NCBI GenBank assembly: GCA_009602725.1
Contig: WELB01000402.1
Coordinates: 1 to 23,571, forward strand
Source of the DNA: Spirogloea muscicola
Taxonomy: Eukaryota > Streptophyta > Zygnematophyceae > Spirogloeales > Spirogloeaceae
Direction: 5' to 3'
DNA length: 23,571 nucleotides
The notes beneath the pieces were generated by a model. The model saw only the letters and a list, made by a program, of their open reading frames with translations. It ran no database searches and was not told the origin of the DNA. This document shows positions 4,345 through 23,571 of this stretch, one piece after another. A program made the translations under genes and the position numbers. Numbering within the stretch: the stretch's first letter is position 1; every line of letters begins with the position of its first letter.

Positions 4345-7300
4345 ATGGCGGCCGCCACCGCCCCGCCTGCGCCGCCGCCACCGCGGCTGCCGGCGCCACC
4401 GCGCTCCTTGCGCGGCTCTGCGGCCTCGTCCCGCCTCGGCGCTCCCCTCCTCGCTCGCCAGGGCACTCCCGTCGCCTGCACCACCTCCGCGACGCGCTCC
4501 AAGCCCCCCCGCAAGCGCAGCTCCTCGTCCTCGTCCCCCTCTGGCGGCCGGTCAGATTCCTGCCCGCCCTCTCAATGAATTGCAGCTGGCACCCTTCGCA
4601 GGACGCCTTTGTCCGGGCCGCTCGCATGGTGTTGGTGTCCTAGGTGCTCTAGGTGTCCTATGCTCAGGGCTCCGGGCATTAGGGTTTCTGCCTCCAAAGG
4701 CAGGTGCCTTTGGCACCTCCGACGAGCTTCTCGAGCAAGGCCCCCCGATGTTGGAAGTCGATTTGTCAGTACCTGCCATGTCCTCTGCTGCGGTCGTGCT
4801 ACTTCTGTCATTGCAGTCCCACTCATTGTGCAGTTGTGCAGCCCGACCTTGAGCCCTGGAGGCCCAGGGGTAGCTGCAACCTCCGGGCTAACACTGTCAC
4901 GCTCCGCTGATGCTGCAGCCCGCTGCCATCAGACGACCAGCAGCATCATGGCAAGCTCGCTGCCATGCGGACATTCTCCCAGGACGAGAAGTTAACCTTC
5001 ACGCCTGCAGCAGCAGAGTATGCAAGCCACCTCCTTGCCTGCAACTAACTGGCACTTCCTGCTCTGTCAGCATAAAACGACTCCTCTCTGAGAGCTCAAA
5101 CAGGAGCCGATCGCATTCCTGGTTGGAGCTGCGTAGACAAGCCTCCTTGGCAGATAAGCCAGGGTGCACAATGCAACAGCTCAGGGGTTTCAGTTGATTT
5201 TCAGACAATAGGCAGGTCTAGGATATAGGGCTCAGGATTTTCTGTTCACTACTTAAGCATAGGATGACAAATTTCAAACTTCGCTGTTCGCTGTCTTGAA
5301 TCAGGCCTTGGCCTGGTGCTGTGCACGTGCAATGCCTTCATTGTTCTGTCTGCAAGCTCCTGAAGATAGCTGCTGACTACTGCAACTAGGACCACGTCTT
5401 GCAATGTGCTTGCTGTATCAATCCTCTTGGCCTTGACTTGTGGCAGGAAGGATGCTCTCAGGTGCATCTATGCATACCCCAACGAGTACAGCGTTGGTAT
5501 CTGCAGTCTCGGCTATCAACTTGTGTGGTCCTGGCTCTCGGGTAAGCTTCTTCGTCCCCGATAACAAGGTCCTCCTTTATGGTATCACCATCCCGACGCC
5601 TTTGCATCTCTTCCATGCCATTGGTGGCTCTTGTCTTGCAAAGGAGTTGCACCCCTCACGGCTGCTTGCTTGCTGTCCAGTCAGGACGGATGTCCATGTG
5701 GCCCGGCTCTTCACAGATGCTTCAGAACCAATCATGAGAAACCCGGACTTGATTGGCTTTTGCTTTTCCTGGGAGCTTGACTATGCCCACATCTTGGCAA
5801 TGCTCGAAGAACAAGGTCTCTCGCTCAGGTGGTTAACACGGCAGAGCTTTCCCTAAGTATGCGGCTAATCGGGCGGGGGGAGTCAGATTTGGGAGCTTTG
5901 ATTGCCTTACAGGCTTGATGTACTCATCATCAAGTCTGCTGCGTGCACAAGTGTACTGGAGTCGATTAGAAGCTCCCTTATCCGCTTCACTGTGCCTGTT
6001 CCCAGGTCTGAGCAAAGGGCTGACTGGGAGCCGATTGTCTTTGGTGGGGGCCCGGTGCTGACAGCAAATCCAGAGCCTTATGCAGACTTTTTTGACGTTG
6101 TGCTGCTTGGTGATGGAGAGGATTTGCTGGACGCTTTCATCCAGGTCTCTGTCTAGCTCTTCATGCTCGCTGCAGGAGCCAATGCTTGCCCAAGAACGGT
6201 CAAGCTTATTGGCTCTTGCTTGGGCCTGCAGGCTTTCCAGTCAGTACGAGGATCTTCTGGCTCAAGAAGGGATCGACTGACAGCCTTAACTCAGGTAAGC
6301 AGTCAGCTTAAAATGATGCGCATGCACTTTGCAGTCTCCTTATCTCGAAGATGTTGTGGGCTTGCACGCCTGGCTACTAAGGGCACGCCATTGTGTGTTT
6401 AAAGCTGTCGGTAGACTGCTGCATAGAGGTCCAGTGGCTCCCCTGCATGCTATGCAAGGGTGCTCAGCCTGCAGGAGTATGAAACTCAGCCGTGGCCACG
6501 TCAGCCTTGGCCGTTTTTGCTGTTGAGAGCCAAGTATCACGCTGTTGGAAGTCGACCGCCTGCTCCACCGGTCGCAGGTTCCAGGGGTATATGTACCTGC
6601 ACTATATGAGGTGGAGTACCAGTCCCTGGATGGCCCAATCTCTTCCATCTCACCCATCAGCGACACGGTGCCAGCCTGGGTCACAAAACAGACATACCGT
6701 GGCAATAAGCTGGCCGTATCATCTGTTGTGACTCAACGGATGGCTTGGGAGAATATCTTCATGGTGGAGGTATGAGAGACAACACCCCCATGCTCAAGTA
6801 TCACCTCTGCCTCAGTTGTTCGACATGTTGTACTCCTGGTCTTACAAGGATTGTTTTGCGCGAATGAGCTTACATGTCTGTGCATCCGCTCAAGGAGCTC
6901 TTATCCAGGTTGCATGTTGCACCTCCTCCAGGTGGTCCGGAGCTGTCCAGAGATGTGCCGTTTCTGCTTGGCAAGCTATGTGACCCTGCCCTTCCGCTCG
7001 GCGTCTGTCCAGGACTCTCTGTTACCTTCTATTGAAGAGGGCATGCAGGTGAGGAAGACTTCTGACGCAAATCATAGATAAACCTGCAGATTGCACTTCT
7101 CTTGTGATCCGCTGCGCAGGAGAGCGCACTTTAGCATAGCTTGTGGTGATACAAGGAATACTAGGCATGATGCTGAGTGCAGGCAATGATGCGGCCATGC
7201 AGCTGACAGATAGGATAGGACTCCTGGGTGCATCAGTAACGCAACACCCGCACTTTGATGAGCTCTTGGACTTTATGCTTCGGCCAGCACTAGAACACAT

Positions 7301-8605
7301 CCGTCTCAGGTATGTGGACAAACTGTGCTCATGCAAAGTGGCTGGCCTGCGCTTGGCGAGTTTGTTCTTCACGGAGTTGTCCTTCCATTGACTTGGAGCG
7401 CGTCATTTTGCAGCATAGCTTCAGTCAGGACAAACACAGTCACGGAGAAGTTGGCAGCAGCGCTGGCAAAACGTGGTACCAAGTCATTGACGGTGGCGGT
7501 CGAGAGCGGCTCTGATCGTATGCGCAGCATTGTCAATAAGAAGGTGATTGCTGTGCCTGATAGGCATCCGACTGTTGCTCACTGCTCGCTCCGAAGTGGG
7601 CATCCATCTGCCAGAGCAGCCAGCTTACTGGCTTAGATACTGGCTTCTCTTCAGTTTGTGAAGCGAAAGAGCTGTCATGTTGGTGCTGAACTTGCAGCTA
7701 TCATCAGAGGAAATTCGAGAGGCAGTTGTGCAAGCGCAAGCTGGCGGACTGGAAGGCTTCAAGCTCTACGGCATGGTTGGCCTTCCCGGAGAGGTGCACA
7801 TCTCAGCTAGTCATGTCCCCAGTGGACATCACGAGCAAGACTAGTGAAAGGCAATTGATGGGCCTTGATGTGCACACTGGCAGCACATGGAGGATGTGGA
7901 GGAGACTGTCGCAATGATGCAGAGGTTGCAAGAGGCCGCACCACACCTCAAGCTCACCTTGGGCTGCTCTACCTTCGTCCCAAAGGCAAGCAATAACCTG
8001 ATGTTAAAGCCTGCCATGCAAGGTCAAGCTCATGTGTGCACATCCTGCCTCTAGCACGACTTCAATGCTTGTTCACAGCAAGAATCTCACTTCCACAGAG
8101 TGGCGACGGTGGGCACAGGCTCATACACCCTTTCAGTGGTACGGTTTGAGCAAGGACGGGGAGTCCAGGCTGGAGTACTTGGACAAGGAGATGCGGCGCC
8201 TCTCCGTGGACTTCCGGCCCGAAAGCTACAAGTGGAGTATCATCCAAGCACTGCTCTCGAGGGGCGATAGGCGGCTCGGTCGCCTCCTGGAGCAAGTCCG
8301 CTTGTTTGGCGACAGCAAAGGAAGTTTCAGGCGAGCTTTCAAGGAGCTCCGTGGCCAGCTGCCGCCTTTGGAGTACTATGTGCACCGCCAGGTAAGCAAG
8401 CTACCTCTGCTCTGGAGTGACTTGGCAAGCCATACACTGTACAGTGAATGAGGCTTCCATTATGCACATGAGCTGATAATTACTGCTCTTTGTTGTCACG
8501 CAGTGCGCAATTGGAGAGGAGATCCTACCATGGTCTCATTTGCATGGGCCGCTACCAGAAACCACACTAGTTAGGCATGCCAGAGAGGCGGCTGCGCTCT
8601 TCTGA
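4345..8605 (+). CDS. Plastid-targeted radical SAM protein, B12-binding-type (cyanobacterial family)
   Basis: Thirteen exons give 589 aa: 4345-4550, 5447-5541, 5681-5828, 6006-6144, 6232-6294, 6578-6769, 6932-7048, 7203-7309, 7414-7543, 7698-7793, 7884-7985, 8119-8391, 8504-8605; phases agree throughout. The start is GCCATGGCG. Residues 1-68 are rich in Ala, Pro, Ser and Arg without acidic residues, like a chloroplast transit peptide. From about 70 (YAYPNEYSVGICSLGYQLVW) comes the N-terminal B12-binding-like domain, with GGGPVLTANPEP at 163-174. The radical SAM cluster motif CPEMCRFC is at 286-293 and should bind a 4Fe-4S cluster. VAVESGSDR, YGMVGLPGE and CSTFVPKAHTPFQW follow the family order; the end is PWSHLHGPLPETTL. 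The substrate is unknown to me. Intron 11 (7986-8118) has a GC donor. Intron 1 (896 nt) is unusually long, so an extra short exon there or a different first exon is possible. Family assignment is firm; plastid location is inferred. Confidence 0.9.
4680..4687 (+). promoter_or_regulatory. Telobox-like motif in intron 1
   Basis: TAGGGTTT occurs just inside the long first intron of the radical SAM gene, about 130 nt after its donor. It could be an intronic regulatory element, or this intron could be partly promoter or 5' untranslated region if the first exon is mis-modelled. A single 8-base match is weak evidence. Confidence 0.2.
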
Positions 8606-10189: not shown

Positions 10190-12985
10190 TTAAATACGCT
10201 TCACAATCTGCACCACATCCTCGTCCGCCAGCTCGTGCTCCTGCCAGGCAGCCAATCTCCCCCCATCTCAGTCACGAGTCAACCGCATGAAGCACCGGCA
10301 GCGAATGAGTGTTGAGACGCGAGGACCTACCTTGCCTACCCGCTGCGGCTTGTGCTTTGCACTGGAACCCCACACCAGCGCGCTGTGCCACACCCACAGG
10401 CAAGCCCAACAGGCAGGCTCAGTCAGTGTCACGTGACAAAAGTTTCTAGGTAATGTTGTGCCCACAACATGCACACCATGGTTGCACTAGCTGAGTACTG
10501 CCGCGAGCCCGCCAGGCTCAGCAGGCCAAAAGTGTGCCACTCACTATTTGAGCTGCTTTGCCATGTCCTTGTGGATGCGGACGCAGAAATCTTCCACCGT
10601 GCACTTGTGTGCCGGCAGGATGACCTGCAAGCGGCAACAGGGAGGCGCAAGGAGCGGCACTGACTTAGAGGGGAGCTTGTCTTGAGCACCCAAAGATGCC
10701 ACATGATCGCCATCAGCCCAAAGCCTCCTGTCAGCAGATTCTTTGTTGCAGTGAGGGACGCGAGCGCAAGGACCAGCCTGTGCACGCCGTTCATGTCAAT
10801 ACCTGTAAGCAGGCAAGCAAGCCTGGGCGTGGTCGAGCCCCACTGGCGGCTCGTTCAGTCCTCAAAGGGTTCAGGGTCTAGGGTCGTCATACGTACCGGG
10901 TCATCATAATCAGGATTAACGCCCCGCGGCTTCGTATACACCCGAATGAGGTCGAGGTACTCCCACACCTTCTCCAGCAGACCATCAAGGTTCCACTCCA
11001 AGTGGGCACTGTAGCCAACCATGCCATCATCAGAGCTCCTGGACCCCTCAGACTTGCCCACTCTGTCGCACGTGACTTAGCCCAGCCTCACACTGAAGAG
11101 GGAGGTGTATGGGAGACTTACGCAGTGGGCCGGCATGCTGACTTGCAGACTGAATATGATTGAATCGCTTACAATTGCTAACAAGCAGAGGTCGCCGACT
11201 GCAAGGAGGTAGAGGAGGCAGAGGCGCCGCACCTGACGGGGCAGTAGTGGGGCAACCGGTCCAGGACCTCCAGCTCCTCCACAGTGATCTGGTCAATCTT
11301 GTTCACGGCGTAGACACACGGTATGTACACGCGATTGCCCTCGATCACGTCAATCAAGTCGTCTACATTCGCATCGTAACGAAGGCTTATGTCGGCATTG
11401 TGTATCCTGTACTCGCCACAGATGGTCTTGCAGGTGTCCAAGTCGAGGTAGGTCGGCGTGATCGTGGAAGACAGGCTGATGCCGCCTTTTTCTTTCCGCC
11501 TGAATGTCAGGTTAGGCGGCTGTTGATTGAGCCTGCGGGTGGGACAGGTTGAGTGGTCAGCTGGATAGCTGGCGGCACAGCCCAACTGCAGGCAGCTCCC
11601 GGAACAGCTGGGACCTCGTGAATGAAACCCTGGTTGACCTGTGAAACCACCGTGACTGTGAGCATTTCTGCACCAGAGTTGGACACACGGATGCACCTGA
11701 TGCCAAAGCCTTCGAGCTCCTTCTCAATCAGGCGCTTGTGAGTGATGGGCTTGATGGCGTCGAGCACGATGATGATGCAGTTGCAGGTCCGGGCAGTGGA
11801 GATGACCTGCAAGCAGACAGCAGGGCAGCACCATGAAGGGCGCCCGGAGGGGGTGGGAGAGGGTTTTACGGTCGGCAGGGCAGCAGTCCTCGTGGCATGG
11901 TGCTGCGAGCAAGTCACGAGCACAGCAATCTCGCCCATGCAAGCCCCACCTGCCGACCCCGACCCTTGCCGTCCTTGGCACCTTCAATGATTCCAGGCAG
12001 ATCGAGTAGCTGTGCCACACAAACACCCAGCAGTGCAGTCACGACCAGCAAGTCGCCAGTCCGACACGAGTAGCTCGCCAGCTCGCCATCACGTGTCAGA
12101 GATTGCGGGGACACATTGTTTGATGCAGGTGTACATGCAAGCGTCCGCGGAGCGAGAACAGCAGCAAAGCAACACCTGTGCTGCACCTGGATCTTTGCTC
12201 CTCGGTAGCGGATGACTCCTGGAACACAGGTGAGCGTCGTGAACTCGTACGAGGCCACCTGCACGACGACCGGTATGACATCTCATCGGTCGCTTCGGTC
12301 GCGGCACTCGCTCAACTCCCTCCCCACCTTACCTTGACGGCAAGAGCAGCTGGCAGCGCTAGGGGCACACTGTGAAGCGGCTTTGAGGATGGACAGGGCG
12401 AGCAGGGTGTGGGAGTGGAGGGGAGAGTAGGGCCGGCAGGCTCGCCTCGGAGAAGGTGCCGGTGAGCTTGTTGAGCAGGGTGGACTTGCCGACGGAGGGG
12501 AAGCCCACGAGGCCGACGCGCGAGTCCCCGCTCTTGGTCACGTCGAACCCCGCGCCCTCGCCAGCCTTGCCGCCCGAGGAAGGCGCCAGGATCTCGCGGC
12601 GCAGCTTCGCCAGCTTGGCCTGCAGCGAGACGCGTGCGACGCTCGGAGTCTCGTGAGCTGCCGGGTGGGCTCTGTGGGCTCGGAGGCAGCCCAAGGGTGC
12701 GCGGCACAGCGGCGGGGCTCCGAGGCAGGGGTGAGCACGGTGGCGGGACCTTGAGCAGGCCGAGGTGGTTGGACGTCGCCTTGTTCTTCTGCGTCTTGGC
12801 CATCTGCGCGCAGGCAGCCGGTGGCGCTGGGAGCTCGCGCCTGGCGGCACGGCGAGCTGCTCCCGCGCGAGCGGCTGCTCGCAGCGCGCGGGCCGGCGCA
12901 GGCGGCGGGCCGGAAGCCTGCAGGAGGCCCGCAGGAGCCGCACCTCGTCCTCGATGTCCTTGATTTTCTGCATGACGGTAGCCAT
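10190..12985 (-). CDS. DRG1: Developmentally regulated GTP-binding protein, DRG1 type
   Basis: DRG1 is a conserved cytosolic Obg-HflX-related GTPase linked to translating ribosomes and usually partnered by a DFRP protein. Eleven exons, in coding order 12985-12944, 12803-12750, 12619-12446, 12258-12187, 12009-11950, 11806-11697, 11532-11233, 11008-10897, 10624-10545, 10382-10331 and 10240-10190, give 368 aa, the family's normal length. The N-terminus [14 protein letters not shown] leads into an ARTQKNKAT-like helix. G1 GFPSVGKS is at 71-78, G3 DLPG at 117-120, G4 NKID at 248-251 and G5 SAH at 271-273. [11 protein letters not shown] marks the DRG1 rather than the DRG2 branch. The C-terminal TGS domain holds [17 protein letters not shown] and ends [16 protein letters not shown]. 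Introns are 90-272 nt. Intron 3 (12445-12259) starts with GC. The start codon overlaps that of the divergent ATP synthase gene; the second ATG, at 12973, is an alternative. Confidence 0.95.
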
Positions 12986-12986
12986 G
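12983..12986. other. Overlapping start codons of DRG1 and ATP synthase d
   Basis: The palindrome CCATGG (12982-12987) contains the minus-strand ATG of DRG1 (12985-12983) and the plus-strand ATG of ATP synthase subunit d (12984-12986). If both are used, there is no intergenic promoter between the coding regions: each gene's 5' untranslated region and promoter must lie in the other's coding or intron DNA, or in unseen upstream exons. Confidence 0.7.
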
Positions 12987-14277
12987 GCGGCGGCGGGGGC
13001 GGCGACGGCGGCGGCGGAGGCGGAGGCGGAGGCGGCGGCGGCGGCNCTTCGCGCCGCGACGCGCACCGCCGCGGCGGCGGCGGCGCGCCTGGACTGGGAC
13101 CTGCTGGGCAAGGTGGTCACCTCCGACGACGGCCGCCGCGAGCTCGCCGCCCTGCGCCGCGCGCTCGCCGAGGCCAACGACGCTCTCCAGTCCAAGTTTG
13201 CCGCCGTGAGCAGCCCCCCCCCATGCTCGCGCGCGCCGCCTTCCCCTCGCAGGCCGGCGCCTCTGACGCCCGCGCCGCGCCGGCGGCCGTGGCGCGCGCG
13301 CAGAAGCCGGTGTCGATCGACTGGAAGGCGTGCCGCGAGAAGCTCAACCCCAAGGTCGTCGACATCTTCCACAAGGCCTTCGACGGTCAGCTGCGCCCTG
13401 CGGTCGCCCACCGCCGCCGGGCTGCTTCCACCAGGCGGCCTCACGGCGCTCCCCGCTCCACCCTTGCTTCCTGCATGCTTTGGGCGCCGCTGCCCTCTCC
13501 CGTGCTCCCGAAGGCCCCCCCTGCGCAAGATCACACCATCCGCTGGTGAAGCATTCTGCCACTCCCGGAAGCAGCTGCAGGCGCAACCCTACTGAAGCAG
13601 TTTTCTGCCGCCGCTGCCTCCAGGCCTCCAGATCCCCGACTTCGAGGACAACCTCAGCGGCGAGTACAAGAAGAAGCATGAGGAGCTGGTGAGACCCGAC
13701 GGACCGTCCTCGTGCCGCGGACCCACGTGCAAGTGCATGGCTGCTTGCTGTAGACATGCGCTCGCTGTGACGTGTTTCGGGTCCCTCCTGTGCACTCGAC
13801 TTGGGTCAGACGCCCGCAGCTGAAGCCTCCATGCCGGGGCGTGCTCCAGATGGTCAAGGCCACCGAAGCTGAGGAGTTCTCCAAGAAAGAAACCGTCAGG
13901 TTGCAGGCGGAGCTCGACAAGGTCAGGCAGACTAAGGTATGCACCCTCCCAAAGAGTATCCCCCTGGCGGGACATGCAATGCATTTGGTGATCGGAGCTC
14001 ACTGCCAATCGCGAAACACTGCCAGGCAGTGCACAAGTCTGCTTAGTTGTTCAATGAGTCCTGTTCTTTTGTGCCTCAGCTTCCTGGATGTGCCTTCTCC
14101 AGTTGTCAGCTTGAGTCAGCTCTCATGGATGGAAGCTATCTCGGCTTGCACCACTTGCCGCTGTGCGCCGAGCAGGAGGCCATCAAGGACATGACGGTGG
14201 ATGAGTACCTCGCTAAGAACCCCAACATCAGGGCCAAGATTGACAAGGAAATTGAGGAGCACAATTGGGGATACTAG
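12984..14277 (+). CDS. ATPQ: Mitochondrial ATP synthase subunit d
   Basis: Subunit d is part of the peripheral stalk of mitochondrial F1Fo ATP synthase. The exons are 12984-13205, 13304-13385, 13624-13688, 13850-13936 and 14176-14277, giving 185 aa; plant subunit d is near 168. The conserved core starts at [11 protein letters not shown] and continues [49 protein letters not shown] and a charged coiled-coil-like stretch. It ends [11 protein letters not shown] and IEEHNWGY, the signature C-terminus of the plant protein. The first 37 or so residues are almost all Ala, Glu, Arg and Thr, encoded by a GCG/GAG microsatellite. They include the ambiguous base 13046, which falls in the third position of a GCN codon and so still reads Ala. 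For exon 2 I prefer the acceptor at 13303 (98-nt intron) over 13252 (47 nt), because it restores the family's spacing between KF and IDW. Confidence 0.93.
12987..13095 (+). repeat. GCG/GAG low-complexity repeat
   Basis: A run of GCG, GAG and GGC triplets encodes the Ala/Glu-rich leader of ATP synthase subunit d. It contains the ambiguous base at 13046. Length errors in assembly are plausible in such DNA, although the reading frame is intact on both sides. Confidence 0.8.
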
Positions 14278-16794: not shown

Positions 16795-19700
16795 CTATCC
16801 TTTGAGGACGCGGGACTTCGCCAAAGCGACCATCTGGGACTGCTCAGAGGACCTTGTAACCTGGATCACAGTGGGCTGGCCAGGTTGTCTCGCCAGCGGT
16901 TGCTGCCAGGGCTCCCCGTCTATCTGCAGGTATGCACGCTTTCGCACCTCCCCGTGCAGCTCAAATCGCACAGCCCTAGCCTGTGGCCACAGTCAAGACG
17001 GTGTCACCAGCCCCTGTCCATCTCGCTTGCTGAAATGCAAGTCCTTGAGTAGGTCCACAAACGAGTACGTGACCACAGAGCGTGGGCGATACGGTCTGCG
17101 ACAGGGCAACTTGCAGGCATTGGGTACACTACAACTTGAGGCAGGTCAAGCGGAGCACGGTGAGGTAGGCGTGTGATGAGGACCTGCGCAAGGCGGGTAG
17201 CATGCGTCCACTTCCACATCACCACAACAGTGTGCCAGCCGCCTCGCAAGCCCACCAGCTCTAGAAGCCCATCATTGACCCGAGCTTCCACCCAGCTGTT
17301 CTGCGCAATCAGCGGCCAACCTCCATAACCGTCAAGTCCTCCGGCATGAAAGACTGCCTGATGTGCGAGCCTGGAGTCGGACCCTTGCACAAGCAGAGTG
17401 CAGCAAGCCGAGCACCCAGGCGGCAGCAGTGCCAGTACTTTGTCGAGCTGCTTAGTGTGGGGCTTGCCCCAGGGGTCCCGACCGCCAGCATAGCTCTGGA
17501 GATTCAAGATGATGACGGAGCGGAACCTGGCAAACAAGTAGGGGAGACAACATCAGCTGCTGTGCAACACACCACTGCATCACATGCTACTGGCAGGCAT
17601 CTAATGCTCTGACGGCGTGCACATGTGGACTGCGGATTGTAAAATTGTGGATTGCGGCCATGACTTCCGACTGTGTGTGCGTATGTCGTCCGAGCGAGAC
17701 TCCCTAGTGTGATCCTTGGGTCGGGTTGGGTTGGGTTGGTGCCAGTGCGTGTGCTACTCTCAAGCATACCATGGTTGCTTAGGTCCCAACGGAGGGCTAT
17801 ACACACGACATAGAGGAGGCGGTTGTCACATACGTTGGCGGCAGGAAGAGCTCTTCCCACGGGCCTCCATCTGCCTTCTGTATGGTGATGCGGACTACTG
17901 TCGCCAGGCCTCTGCGGGAAGTAAGGTTGAGGACAAGCCACTGCTGTCAGGCCACTGCCTCCCACAGCTTGAGCTTCTCGTAAAGGGACCTGCAGGTGAT
18001 GCAGGTCCCGCAGGTGATGCAGGAGAAGGGGATGGCATGGAAGGCGCTTGTGTGCCTGGCACGCGGATGGGTCGAACATGGGGTGCAGAACCAGCCCTGC
18101 CCGCATCCATAGCAGGTGTAGATCATCTGAAGAGCAAGACCAGTGTGGGGGAACACTCCTTACGATCAGGAAATCAGCGTGAACTGAGAGGGCATCAGAT
18201 GCAGGCCTCAACCTTCCAGCTGGTTGTCAAAGGAGGCAAGCGAGAAGACCAGGGCAGCCGGGGCGGCGATAAAATCTGTACCTGATTGGCGATGGGCCCC
18301 CGCGCCAGCCATGGCTTCAATTCACGCAGATGATGGAAACCGTAAGTGACCTGAGCATCCATGCCTGCAAAGGGCCGCCGTTGATCGTCTTGTCAGGCTC
18401 GTCGCTCGAGGCTGCAAGGTGTCGCTCCTGGGCTGAAAGGACAGGCCAGGTTTGCAGGCAGGAGAGGATGGCTCTCTGGGGGCCTTGCGAGTGCAGTCTA
18501 CCAAGCCGCCTTGCCCAGGAATCATTCATGGCTGTTGGGATGCGACGGCCGCACCAATGCTCATGTAGTTCCAGAAGGAGCCCACAAACTCGTCCTTCTC
18601 GGCATCCTTACCATTCTGTGACAAGCAACAAGAGCACGAGGTGGCCACCAGCAACACGGCCATGTGAGCCTCCCAAGAAATTGACCTCGTAAGCAGTCGC
18701 TGTTGTGCATCAGCACCGCATGCAGGACGAGATCAAAGTGGGCTGCTAGGCATGTGCTGCGAGTGCTTGGCTTCTTCCTACCCTCGAGCATTCTGAGCAA
18801 GTGGGAGCTCAGCGCGGCTGCCTGACAGCTACGTCTGCAGGGCTGTGCACGCATCCTCGACACAAGGGTACAGATGGATGATATGCTGTGCTGGGAGCTG
18901 GCGAGCGCACAAGGTGTGTGGAGGGGGCCACGCTACACACCTCCTCGGCCTCCACCGGCACATGGTGCTGCGCATGCATGGCGTGTGGCAGCTTCAGAGG
19001 TGCCCCTCGCGCCTCCTCCGGCGGCAGCACAAGGACCTGCCAGCTGCTCCTCCCGGCGGCCCGGCCCTTCGCCAGCAGGATGAGCCACCCGGTCGCCAGT
19101 GGGGCCGTAGACTCGCGAGCAGGCTGCCTGCTCGCCTGTCGAGGCTTGCAAAGGAGAGCGAGCTGCTGGCCAGGCCCTCACCTGTCCAGGGGCACCTCCG
19201 CAGCCTCCGCCGCGGCGAGCAGCCGCTTCCGGACCACCTTCTGCTCGGCCGAGGGGAAGCCCCCTCCCTGCAGTCGCAGCAGATGCGGCCGGGCGGGAGC
19301 CGCATCGGGCCAGTGCAGGCGACACAGGCTAGGCAGTCACCGGGGAGGTGTGGGCGGGCTTGCACGGGCTCTGCTGCGGGCAACGCTGCAGCCAGAGCGC
19401 GGCAGGCGCGCGCCGCCGCACCCAGCCGAAGGACCGGGACAGGTCGTTGCCGGTGCCCAGCGGGATGGCGGCGCAGGGCAGCCGCGGCAGGCCGGGGACG
19501 AGCGCGCGCACGGAGGTGACCGAGGCCAGGACCCAGCCCAGCGTGCCGTCGCCTCCTGCCACCTGCCAGCGAAGCGAGGCGGGAGCAGGGCGTGACTGGC
19601 ACCCGGCGTGGTCGCGGCAGCCTGGCTCCGCGCAGCGAGCTCGGGAGCCACCATGGCGCCCCCAGGCCGAGCGATCCGAGCGCCGGCTGCGGGCTGGTAC

Positions 19701-19941
19701 CGGCAGCAGCAGCGGGGGGGCTGCGCACCAGCAAGCGGAGGTTGCGGAGGACGGCGTCGGCGCAGGCGTCGCCCGCGGCGGCCAGGCGGAGGAGGCAGCG
19801 GGCCGCGTGCTCGAGCACGTCCGTGGGCTTGCTCTCGGCCAGGTCGTACACCTGGGCACGCGCGCGCTCACCGGGCGGCTGCGGCCTGATCTGGAGCGGC
19901 GGTGGCGGCGGCGGCGGCGGCGGCGGCGCGGCGGCAAGCAT
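16795..19941 (-). CDS. Diacylglycerol kinase, plant type (5' end uncertain)
   Basis: The enzyme phosphorylates diacylglycerol to phosphatidic acid in lipid signalling. Eleven exons, in coding order 19941-19729, 19562-19422, 19267-19182, 19043-18941, 18615-18555, 18364-18282, 18126-17990, 17911-17834, 17526-17439, 17300-17184 and 16980-16795, give 430 aa with consistent phases. The catalytic domain has the ATP-site motif GGDGTLGW at 74-81, then PLGTGNDLSRSFGWGGGFP. The accessory domain shows LDSW, FWNYMSIGMDAQVTYGFH, YGCGQGWFCTPC, VIILNLQSYAGGRDPWG, VNDGLLELVG and RFELHGEVRKRAYLQIDGEPW. All are hallmarks of plant DGKs. No C1 zinc finger was found. Oddities: a polyproline run near residues 6-15; no clear FINSKSGGR motif, which should precede QVYDL; and a Cys-rich insert CITCGTCITC in exon 7 made by an 18-bp duplication. 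The true first exon is probably upstream of 19941, near the ambiguous base 20164. Confidence 0.92.
17986..18021 (-). repeat. 18-bp tandem duplication in DGK exon 7
   Basis: Two 18-bp units (17986-18003 and 18004-18021) differ at two bases. On the coding strand they read CITCGT and CITC plus AGGTCC. The second unit contains the exon 7 donor (AG|GTCC), while the first has GGGACC there and no GT. The duplication is in frame and gives a CxxCxxCxxC string. Confidence 0.8.
19896..19936 (-). repeat. GGC microsatellite encoding polyproline
   Basis: A GGC/GGT run on the plus strand reads as about ten consecutive prolines in the DGK frame, directly after the first in-frame ATG (19941). Its length is likely variable, and it makes the 5' model of DGK uncertain. 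Confidence 0.75.
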
Positions 19942-20200
19942 CCCCTCTGCCGGCGACGACGAGGTGCTGCTGGCTTTGGCGCCCGGGCGACGCCCGGACG
20001 AAATTGAGGTTATGAATGCCTACCTGTGGGCGCAGCCTGAGCTGCGCGCCGGCAAGGCTGATGCTCTCGACTGGCCCGCTCGCTCGCAGGTCGCCTCGCC
20101 AGCGGACTCGCTACTGTTGGCGAGCTCAATTGGGCTTCCCGGAGTCGGCCGTCGGCCGTCGGCNGGCGGGCGGAGGCGGCGCGGCGGCCATGCCGGCGAG
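19942..20200 (-). other. Possible N-terminal coding region of DGK
   Basis: The frame of exon 1 stays open upstream to about 20019 and reads AFITSISSGRRPGA, which partly resembles the FINSKSGGRxG motif expected at this place but lacks its Asn and Lys. A TAG just upstream (20022-20020) could be the end of an acceptor. An ATG in GGCATGGCC context lies at 20191-20189 beside the ambiguous base 20164, but its frame meets TGA before any good donor. The region is not resolvable by eye. Confidence 0.35.
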
Positions 20201-21821: not shown

Positions 21822-23571
21822 TCACGACCGCAGCTCGTGCAGGCCAATGGTGAGGTCAGAGGAGATGGACATGAGGAGCGGCAAGGTGGGGTGCCACACG
21901 GCGCGCACCACGCGCTTCTGGTGGGCGTCAATCGTTAGCGCCGGCGCCCGACCGAGCTGGCGGATGTCAAAGACGTGGATCTGCGGGTCTGGCGAACCGA
22001 CGGCGACGAGGCGCCCGCACGGCGACCACGACGCCTTGATGAGGCCCGACTGCTCGTCCGAGGTCGCCTGCTCGAAGCCAAACCAGTGCAGCTCCCGTGG
22101 CGACCGCGCGTCCCACAGCCGCAGCTGCTGCCCGAGCGTGCCAATCTGCACAAGAAGGAGGTTGGCATCGAGCGCATTCGGCCGGCAGGCGATGGCCTTG
22201 CTGTCGAATGTGAGCTTGAAGGCCTGCTGCCCGTGCTCGGCATCCCAACCGATCACCCTCTTGTCGAGGCCCGCAGACACCACGACGCCTCGTCGCGGCA
22301 TGCCGTCCACGTCCGTCACCGCCGATGTGTGGGCGTGGCGGTGCAGCAGCCTGGGGACCGGCTGCGAGGCCTGCCGGCTGCACTCCCACAGGACCACGGC
22401 GTGATCGCAGCCGCCCGTCGTGAACAGCCGTCCATCGCCCCACGGCAGGAACGCCACCCTGTTGATGATGCCCTTGTCGTGGGGTGCACCCTCCAGCGTC
22501 CTCGCGCCCTCGCATTTTGGCGAGTTTGTGACGACCGCAGCCTGCCAGTCTCCAGGGGCTGCGTTGTACACGGCCACGAGGGCGGCGCCATCGGGCCGCC
22601 ACGCCAGGTCCTGAGGGAAGGAGCGCTTGGGCGTCTCGCAGTTGATCGAGTGCCTCAGCTCCACGTGCTCCCCCCTGCCCCTGATCTTCCACAGCTTGAC
22701 GCGGCCGTCAAGCGCGCTGGTTGCGCACTCGGTGCCGTCGCTGGGATTGATGAGGAGGGTGCGCAACTTGCGCTGGTGCTGGGACGCGACGAACCGGCTC
22801 CCCACCCGCCGCAAGTGCCGCTGAACCCCAGCCGCCACGCAGCCAATGCGGTCCTCGTGCACCAGCGCTGTTGGGGAGAAGCTTGGGTGCAGGTTGCCAG
22901 CGGCGCTGCCGCCGGCCCTCTTCCCTCCTCCTGCTGAGGAGTCTGTTCTGCAGGAGCTAACACTGCCGTCGCGCTGCCTTGGCACGTCAGCCGGTGCCTG
23001 CTTCCGCCCACTGCCGCAGCTACAGGGATCCCCGTGGAGAATCCTAGGAACGCCCCTGTCGTCTGTGAACGTGGCCCTTGTCGCGCATCTGCTGCAGACC
23101 TGGTCCCGCCTGCTCCGGCCTGAGCTTTCGGTGCGTCCTCTGTGGTCAGCCTCCAAGCCATCTTCGGCACCGCCGTTGCCGCCATCGTCCCCGCCGCGGT
23201 CGTCGTCATCGTCGTTGTCGAGAACCTCGAAGCGCCGGTGCCCATTGGCGTGGCCGTTGGGCCTGCCATCGGGTGCGGCGGGCTGAGGACGCCTCCGTGG
23301 CGATCCCCGGCCTTCCGGAGAGATGTGCGGGGGCTGGCGGCCTGGGTGGGAGGCACCCGCCTGCTCCGGCTCCCGGCGAGCGGCAGTGGAGGCGTCAGGG
23401 CGGGCGGGGCTTCGGCGAGAGCGCGAGGCCGCCTGCCGGGCTGCGGGGTCGCTGCACGTCGTCTCCTCCTTGACCTGGGCCCGCTGCGTTCGCGGCTGTG
23501 GGGTCGGCGGCGGCGCAGGCCGGGCGGCGCCATCGACGGCGGCGGCGACCACAGCGGGTCGCCCTGCGCGG
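21822..23571 (-). CDS. WD40-repeat protein, 5' partial
   Basis: The frame is open from the window edge to TGA at 21824-21822, over 580 codons with no visible intron, unlike its intron-rich neighbours. No in-frame ATG occurs before the middle of the propeller, so the true start lies outside the window or in spliced upstream exons. Numbering from 23552, residues 1-150 are low-complexity and rich in Arg, Pro and Ala with an acidic run NDDDDD near 113. A small Cys cluster, CSRC then GVPRILHGDPCSCGSGRK (153-184), follows. From about 265 come WD40 blades ending VKLWKI, AVVLWEC, RVIGWDAE, LRLWDAR, IHVFDIR and IGLHEL. This layout fits a plant-lineage family of uncharacterised transducin/WD40 proteins (from memory). 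It is presumably a scaffold. Part of the N-terminal open stretch could be intron, since GC-rich DNA has few stops. Confidence 0.85.
   Translation of the reverse strand, partial: RAGRPAVVAAAVDGAARPAPPPTPQPRTQRAQVKEETTCSDPAARQAASRSRRSPARPDASTAARREPEQAGASHPGRQPPHISPEGRGSPRRRPQPAAPDGRPNGHANGHRRFEVLDNDDDDDRGGDDGGNGGAEDGLEADHRGRTESSGRSRRDQVCSRCATRATFTDDRGVPRILHGDPCSCGSGRKQAPADVPRQRDGSVSSCRTDSSAGGGKRAGGSAAGNLHPSFSPTALVHEDRIGCVAAGVQRHLRRVGSRFVASQHQRKLRTLLINPSDGTECATSALDGRVKLWKIRGRGEHVELRHSINCETPKRSFPQDLAWRPDGAALVAVYNAAPGDWQAAVVTNSPKCEGARTLEGAPHDKGIINRVAFLPWGDGRLFTTGGCDHAVVLWECSRQASQPVPRLLHRHAHTSAVTDVDGMPRRGVVVSAGLDKRVIGWDAEHGQQAFKLTFDSKAIACRPNALDANLLLVQIGTLGQQLRLWDARSPRELHWFGFEQATSDEQSGLIKASWSPCGRLVAVGSPDPQIHVFDIRQLGRAPALTIDAHQKRVVRAVWHPTLPLLMSISSDLTIGLHELRS

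Follow-up and report, generated by a model that had tools for sequence, protein, structure and literature searches.

Gene content of the window

The window, by which we mean the whole stretch of 23,571 nucleotides that was analysed, carries multi-exon genes and is thus eukaryotic. It holds a real head-to-head pair, composed of a gene for a DRG1-type GTPase on the minus strand and a gene for subunit d of the mitochondrial ATP synthase on the plus strand (Table 1). The original prediction had proposed both gene identities and their arrangement, and these hold: the DRG1 assignment by alignment to yeast Rbg1, and the subunit d assignment by a match to the protein family PF05873.

Table 1. Features of the divergent gene pair, with positions counted from the first base of the window
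Feature	Position	Strand	Remarks
DRG1-type GTPase gene, multi-exon	10190-12985	minus	extent traced by located conserved peptides
DRG1 exon 1, followed by a GT donor	12944-12985	minus	first 90 residues compared with yeast Rbg1
CCATGG palindrome	12982-12987	both	minus ATG 12985-12983, plus ATG 12984-12986
GGC triplet array, 20 copies	12986-13045		93% G+C, T-free on the plus strand
N	13046		undetermined base, directly 3' of the GGC array
Subunit d first exon, portion beyond the N	13047-13205	plus	LDW from 13089; GTGAGC donor
Subunit d remaining exons, to the stop after EEHNWGY	13304-14277	plus	placed peptides; PF05873

With its exons joined by hand, the first 90 residues of the DRG1 protein align to residues 1-90 of yeast Rbg1 (2.2e-32), and both the conserved N-terminal block and the G1 motif are present. 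In a search of genome contigs, 80 of 161 related loci were retained among the matches listed; by record title all 80 were archaeal, and in 67 of these 80 the match started at query residue 1-4. Since the Rbg1 alignment runs from residue 1 and the archaeal matches from residue 1-4, the predicted DRG1 start at 12985 is well supported. The start context is strong (GCCGCCATGG), and the GGC array, seen from the minus strand, forms a GCC-rich leader ahead of it. The next DRG1 exon begins at 12803, after an AG, while the lower limit of the gene is given by the stop codon after VVQIVKRI, with the peptides of the C-terminal exons located. After exon 3, at 12436-12445, the sequence seems to read GCGAGC in place of a GT donor, which may mark a GC-AG intron.

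The subunit d protein, joined by hand from the exons downstream of the N, matches PF05873 at 5.9e-14 (52.6 bits versus a gathering cut-off of 27) and covers positions 7-143 of the 154-position profile. Its peptides were placed at 13304, 13626-13688, 13850-13936 and 14176-14274. In an ungapped alignment, 63 of 158 residues of the core are identical to those of the subunit d of a plant. The core can be reached from the palindrome only through N13046.

A Pfam scan of 12 proteins or frames also recognised an LSM domain in the frame 1167-1571, a diacylglycerol kinase domain in the frame 19329-20009 and a WD40-repeat protein on the minus strand at 21822-23570, whose frame runs past the end of the window. 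Exon-like pieces lie on the plus strand at 5437-8451; a Radical_SAM_N2 match in 5437-5856 is weak (2.2e-05, under the family cut-off), and the scan gave no such match in the plus-strand pieces 7262-7636 and 8008-8451. At 230-466, a 118-base unit occurs in two head-to-tail copies with 96% matches, and a bacterial-code scan of the window found 0 tRNA genes. The recognised genes of the window are spread out and have several introns; genome compaction leaves no sign among them, and there is thus no hint of compaction of the microsporidian type.

Two ATGs in one palindrome

The original prediction stated that each gene of the pair has its best start in the same six bases, so that the two coding regions would overlap by two bases with no spacer between them. 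The CCATGG palindrome is indeed there, and the DRG1 half of the statement stands, as does the position given for the next in-frame DRG1 ATG (12973). The subunit d half does not stand equally: the plus-strand ATG at 12984 shares the reading frame of the core only if N13046 represents one base, or a multiple of three plus one, and a subunit d start at this ATG, and with it the two-base overlap, is not established. We did find, as predicted, that no in-frame plus-strand ATG lies between 12987 and the subunit d core.

Two further in-frame ATGs on the plus strand, at 12954 and 12972, had been omitted. The reading frame stays free of stops as far back as 12735, and subunit d might start at either of them with a longer overlap, or else in an upstream exon. 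By contrast to the ATG at 12984, which has the best context of the three (G at -3 and +4), both of these ATGs stand in weak start contexts, and an overlap from either would run through DRG1 exon 1. The AGs between the palindrome and the core, by eye, sit in a purine-rich GGC/GAG repeat and make poor acceptors for an upstream exon. A start upstream of the palindrome is therefore an unlikely solution.

How much weight can the ATG at 12984 bear? Because the DRG1 start on the minus strand is preceded by a C, a plus-strand ATG at this position is automatic, and by chance it would fall into the reading frame of subunit d in about one case in three. A second CATG at 12971, inside DRG1 exon 1, has the same two-strand property as the CATG at 12983, with open-frame lengths of 207 and 204 codons compared to 203 and 208 codons at 12983. 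The window contains 139 CATG sites, of which 40 are open on both strands for at least 20 codons and 14 for at least 40 codons; only 3 of the 139, 12983 among them, are open on both strands for at least 74 codons. Two long open frames at 12983 are thus unusual within the window, with most of the open length stemming from the flanking G+C-rich exon sequence. The 60 bases from 12986 to 13045 hold no T on the plus strand, where a stop codon is consequently impossible in any frame, so that the openness of the array is uninformative; a shuffle test on it is uninformative as well, since the stretch holds no T.

Taken at face value, the printed sequence would give subunit d a start at 12984 and an N-terminal extension rich in Ala and Glu; the two coding regions would share two bases and the leader of each mRNA would be antisense to the other gene. 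The favourable context of 12984, the lack of an ATG nearer to the core and an ORF that is in frame if the N is one base all agree with such an overlap. However, the N is then required to be one base, a triplet repeat must encode a 17-residue extension over the plant protein, and the recognised genes of the window show no sign of compaction. On balance we consider a genuine overlap doubtful, if conceivable. Equal doubt attaches to what it would entail, namely two nuclear housekeeping genes that share a two-base start overlap, each with its core promoter inside the first exon of the other, with no evident compaction.

The expected start of subunit d and the N at 13046

The length of the N-terminus in relatives of subunit d indicates where a start should be sought. 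In the proposed ORF, 35 residues precede the LDW motif, compared to 18 residues ahead of the same motif in the plant sequence, whose Met, in the ungapped alignment, lines up with position 13035, the 18th codon of that ORF. The 15 matched PDB sequences have about 6-19 residues before (I/L)DW, as read from table offsets taken ungapped, and the five printed PDB alignments have 9-10. The subunit d start would accordingly be expected at about 13032-13071, around the N, and this interval contains no in-frame ATG. The proposed N-terminal extension also holds three Glu, residues that are unusual for a mitochondrial targeting N-terminus. Ahead of the N, Ala is encoded by GCG in 14 of 14 complete codons, while the 16 Ala codons that follow it in the exon comprise 8 GCC, 7 GCG and 1 GCT; such a contrast is expected of any triplet repeat, coding or not.

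The same interval does contain an in-frame ACG at 13059, and a non-AUG start downstream of the N, for example at this codon, would satisfy the N-terminal lengths of the relatives. It has no direct support, however, and non-AUG starts are rare among abundant housekeeping proteins, which leaves this solution improbable.

The window contains two Ns, at 13046 and 20164, and each directly follows the end of a tandem array identified by TRF (13045 and 20163, respectively). The score threshold was 40, which the array at 20144-20163 reaches exactly. That array has a 7-base unit and lies upstream of the minus-strand diacylglycerol kinase-like frame. A crude, post hoc estimate, which counts 13 TRF rows as 13 array ends, puts the chance of both Ns following arrays at about 3e-7. 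At N13046, the triplet period fits 14 of the 15 bases before the N versus 7 of the 15 after it, a comparison that carries no background rate; at N20164, the corresponding fits are 13/15 and 10/15, making it the weaker case.

Contigs that end in repeats would produce such a pattern at array ends. Some scaffolders may put a single N in place of a negative gap. The Meraculous report attributes negative gaps to contig overlaps that are repetitive or of insufficient length (PMC3158087). We probed both Ns for a suffix-prefix overlap and found none that was convincing: across N13046 there was no exact match of 3-40 bases, and the best ungapped match reached 58% over 38 bases. A literature search found no paper on single-N negative gaps combining all the terms sought. 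Against a lost sequence, N13046 might instead stand for just one base, left uncertain by a GGC-linked miscall, in which case the ORF is in frame; Illumina miscalls after GGC motifs have been reported, with the qualification from the same source that GGC alone is no reliable predictor (PMC3622629).

Since the expected start surrounds the N without an in-frame ATG, a start codon lost or misjoined at the N is the simplest account. Lost sequence near 13046 had been listed in the original prediction as one alternative, and it fits better than the shared start, given the N-terminal lengths of the relatives and the position of both Ns after tandem arrays. We favour, with a probability of roughly 55%, an ordinary divergent housekeeping pair whose sequence was lost or wrongly joined at N13046, at the expense of the subunit d start and perhaps of some intergenic DNA. 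The shared start probably stems from the interrupted sequence or its assembly, not from biology. In such a pair, DRG1 would begin at 12985 behind its GCC-rich leader, the GGC array would break off abruptly at N13046, where the subunit d start would have been lost or misjoined, and the plus-strand ATG at 12984 would be what DRG1's own CCATGG automatically yields on the opposite strand. The two genes would then most likely share a short G+C-rich bidirectional promoter.

Relatives and known systems

Searches for relatives of either gene contributed little on the pair itself. For subunit d, 31 pattern-matching stretches in genome contigs and 7 in viral contigs yielded 0 confirmed relatives each. 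For DRG1, none of 70 stretches in viral contigs was confirmed, and the relatives in genome contigs, being all archaeal, are uninformative on the gene pair. In the literature, our search found no paper joining DRG1, ATP5H and bidirectional, and no paper on overlapping divergent start codons with three of the four phrases sought.

The locus carries a caution for annotation. A start codon set in CCATGG always yields an ATG on the opposite strand, and no stop can interrupt any frame of a T-free GGC repeat; together, these properties can make divergent genes seem to have a common start wherever a gap separates them. Should the overlap be real, it would offer a clean test of two promoters working inside each other's first exons.

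Taken singly, the two proteins resemble their known counterparts to different degrees. DRG1 shows nothing unusual in its first 90 residues, across all of which yeast Rbg1 aligns. Subunit d is alike in its PF05873 core, but its proposed N-terminus, read across the N, would have 35 residues before LDW versus about 6-19 in the matched PDB sequences. As regards their arrangement, overlapping transcripts are described for microsporidia (PMC3629993), and a real overlap would share with them mRNA leaders that run over the neighbouring gene; in contrast to those compacted genomes, the recognised genes of the window are spread out and have several introns. Another likeness is to the head-to-head, bidirectional-promoter pairs of plants and animals, in which two divergent housekeeping genes have their 5' ends close together. 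One usual definition sets this distance at less than 1 kb (PMC4035068), and divergent genes arranged head to head are reported to be highly represented in Arabidopsis (PMC2772851) and abundant in maize (PMC4035068). The pair described here differs from them in having zero intergenic DNA as printed, which is probably owing to the N.
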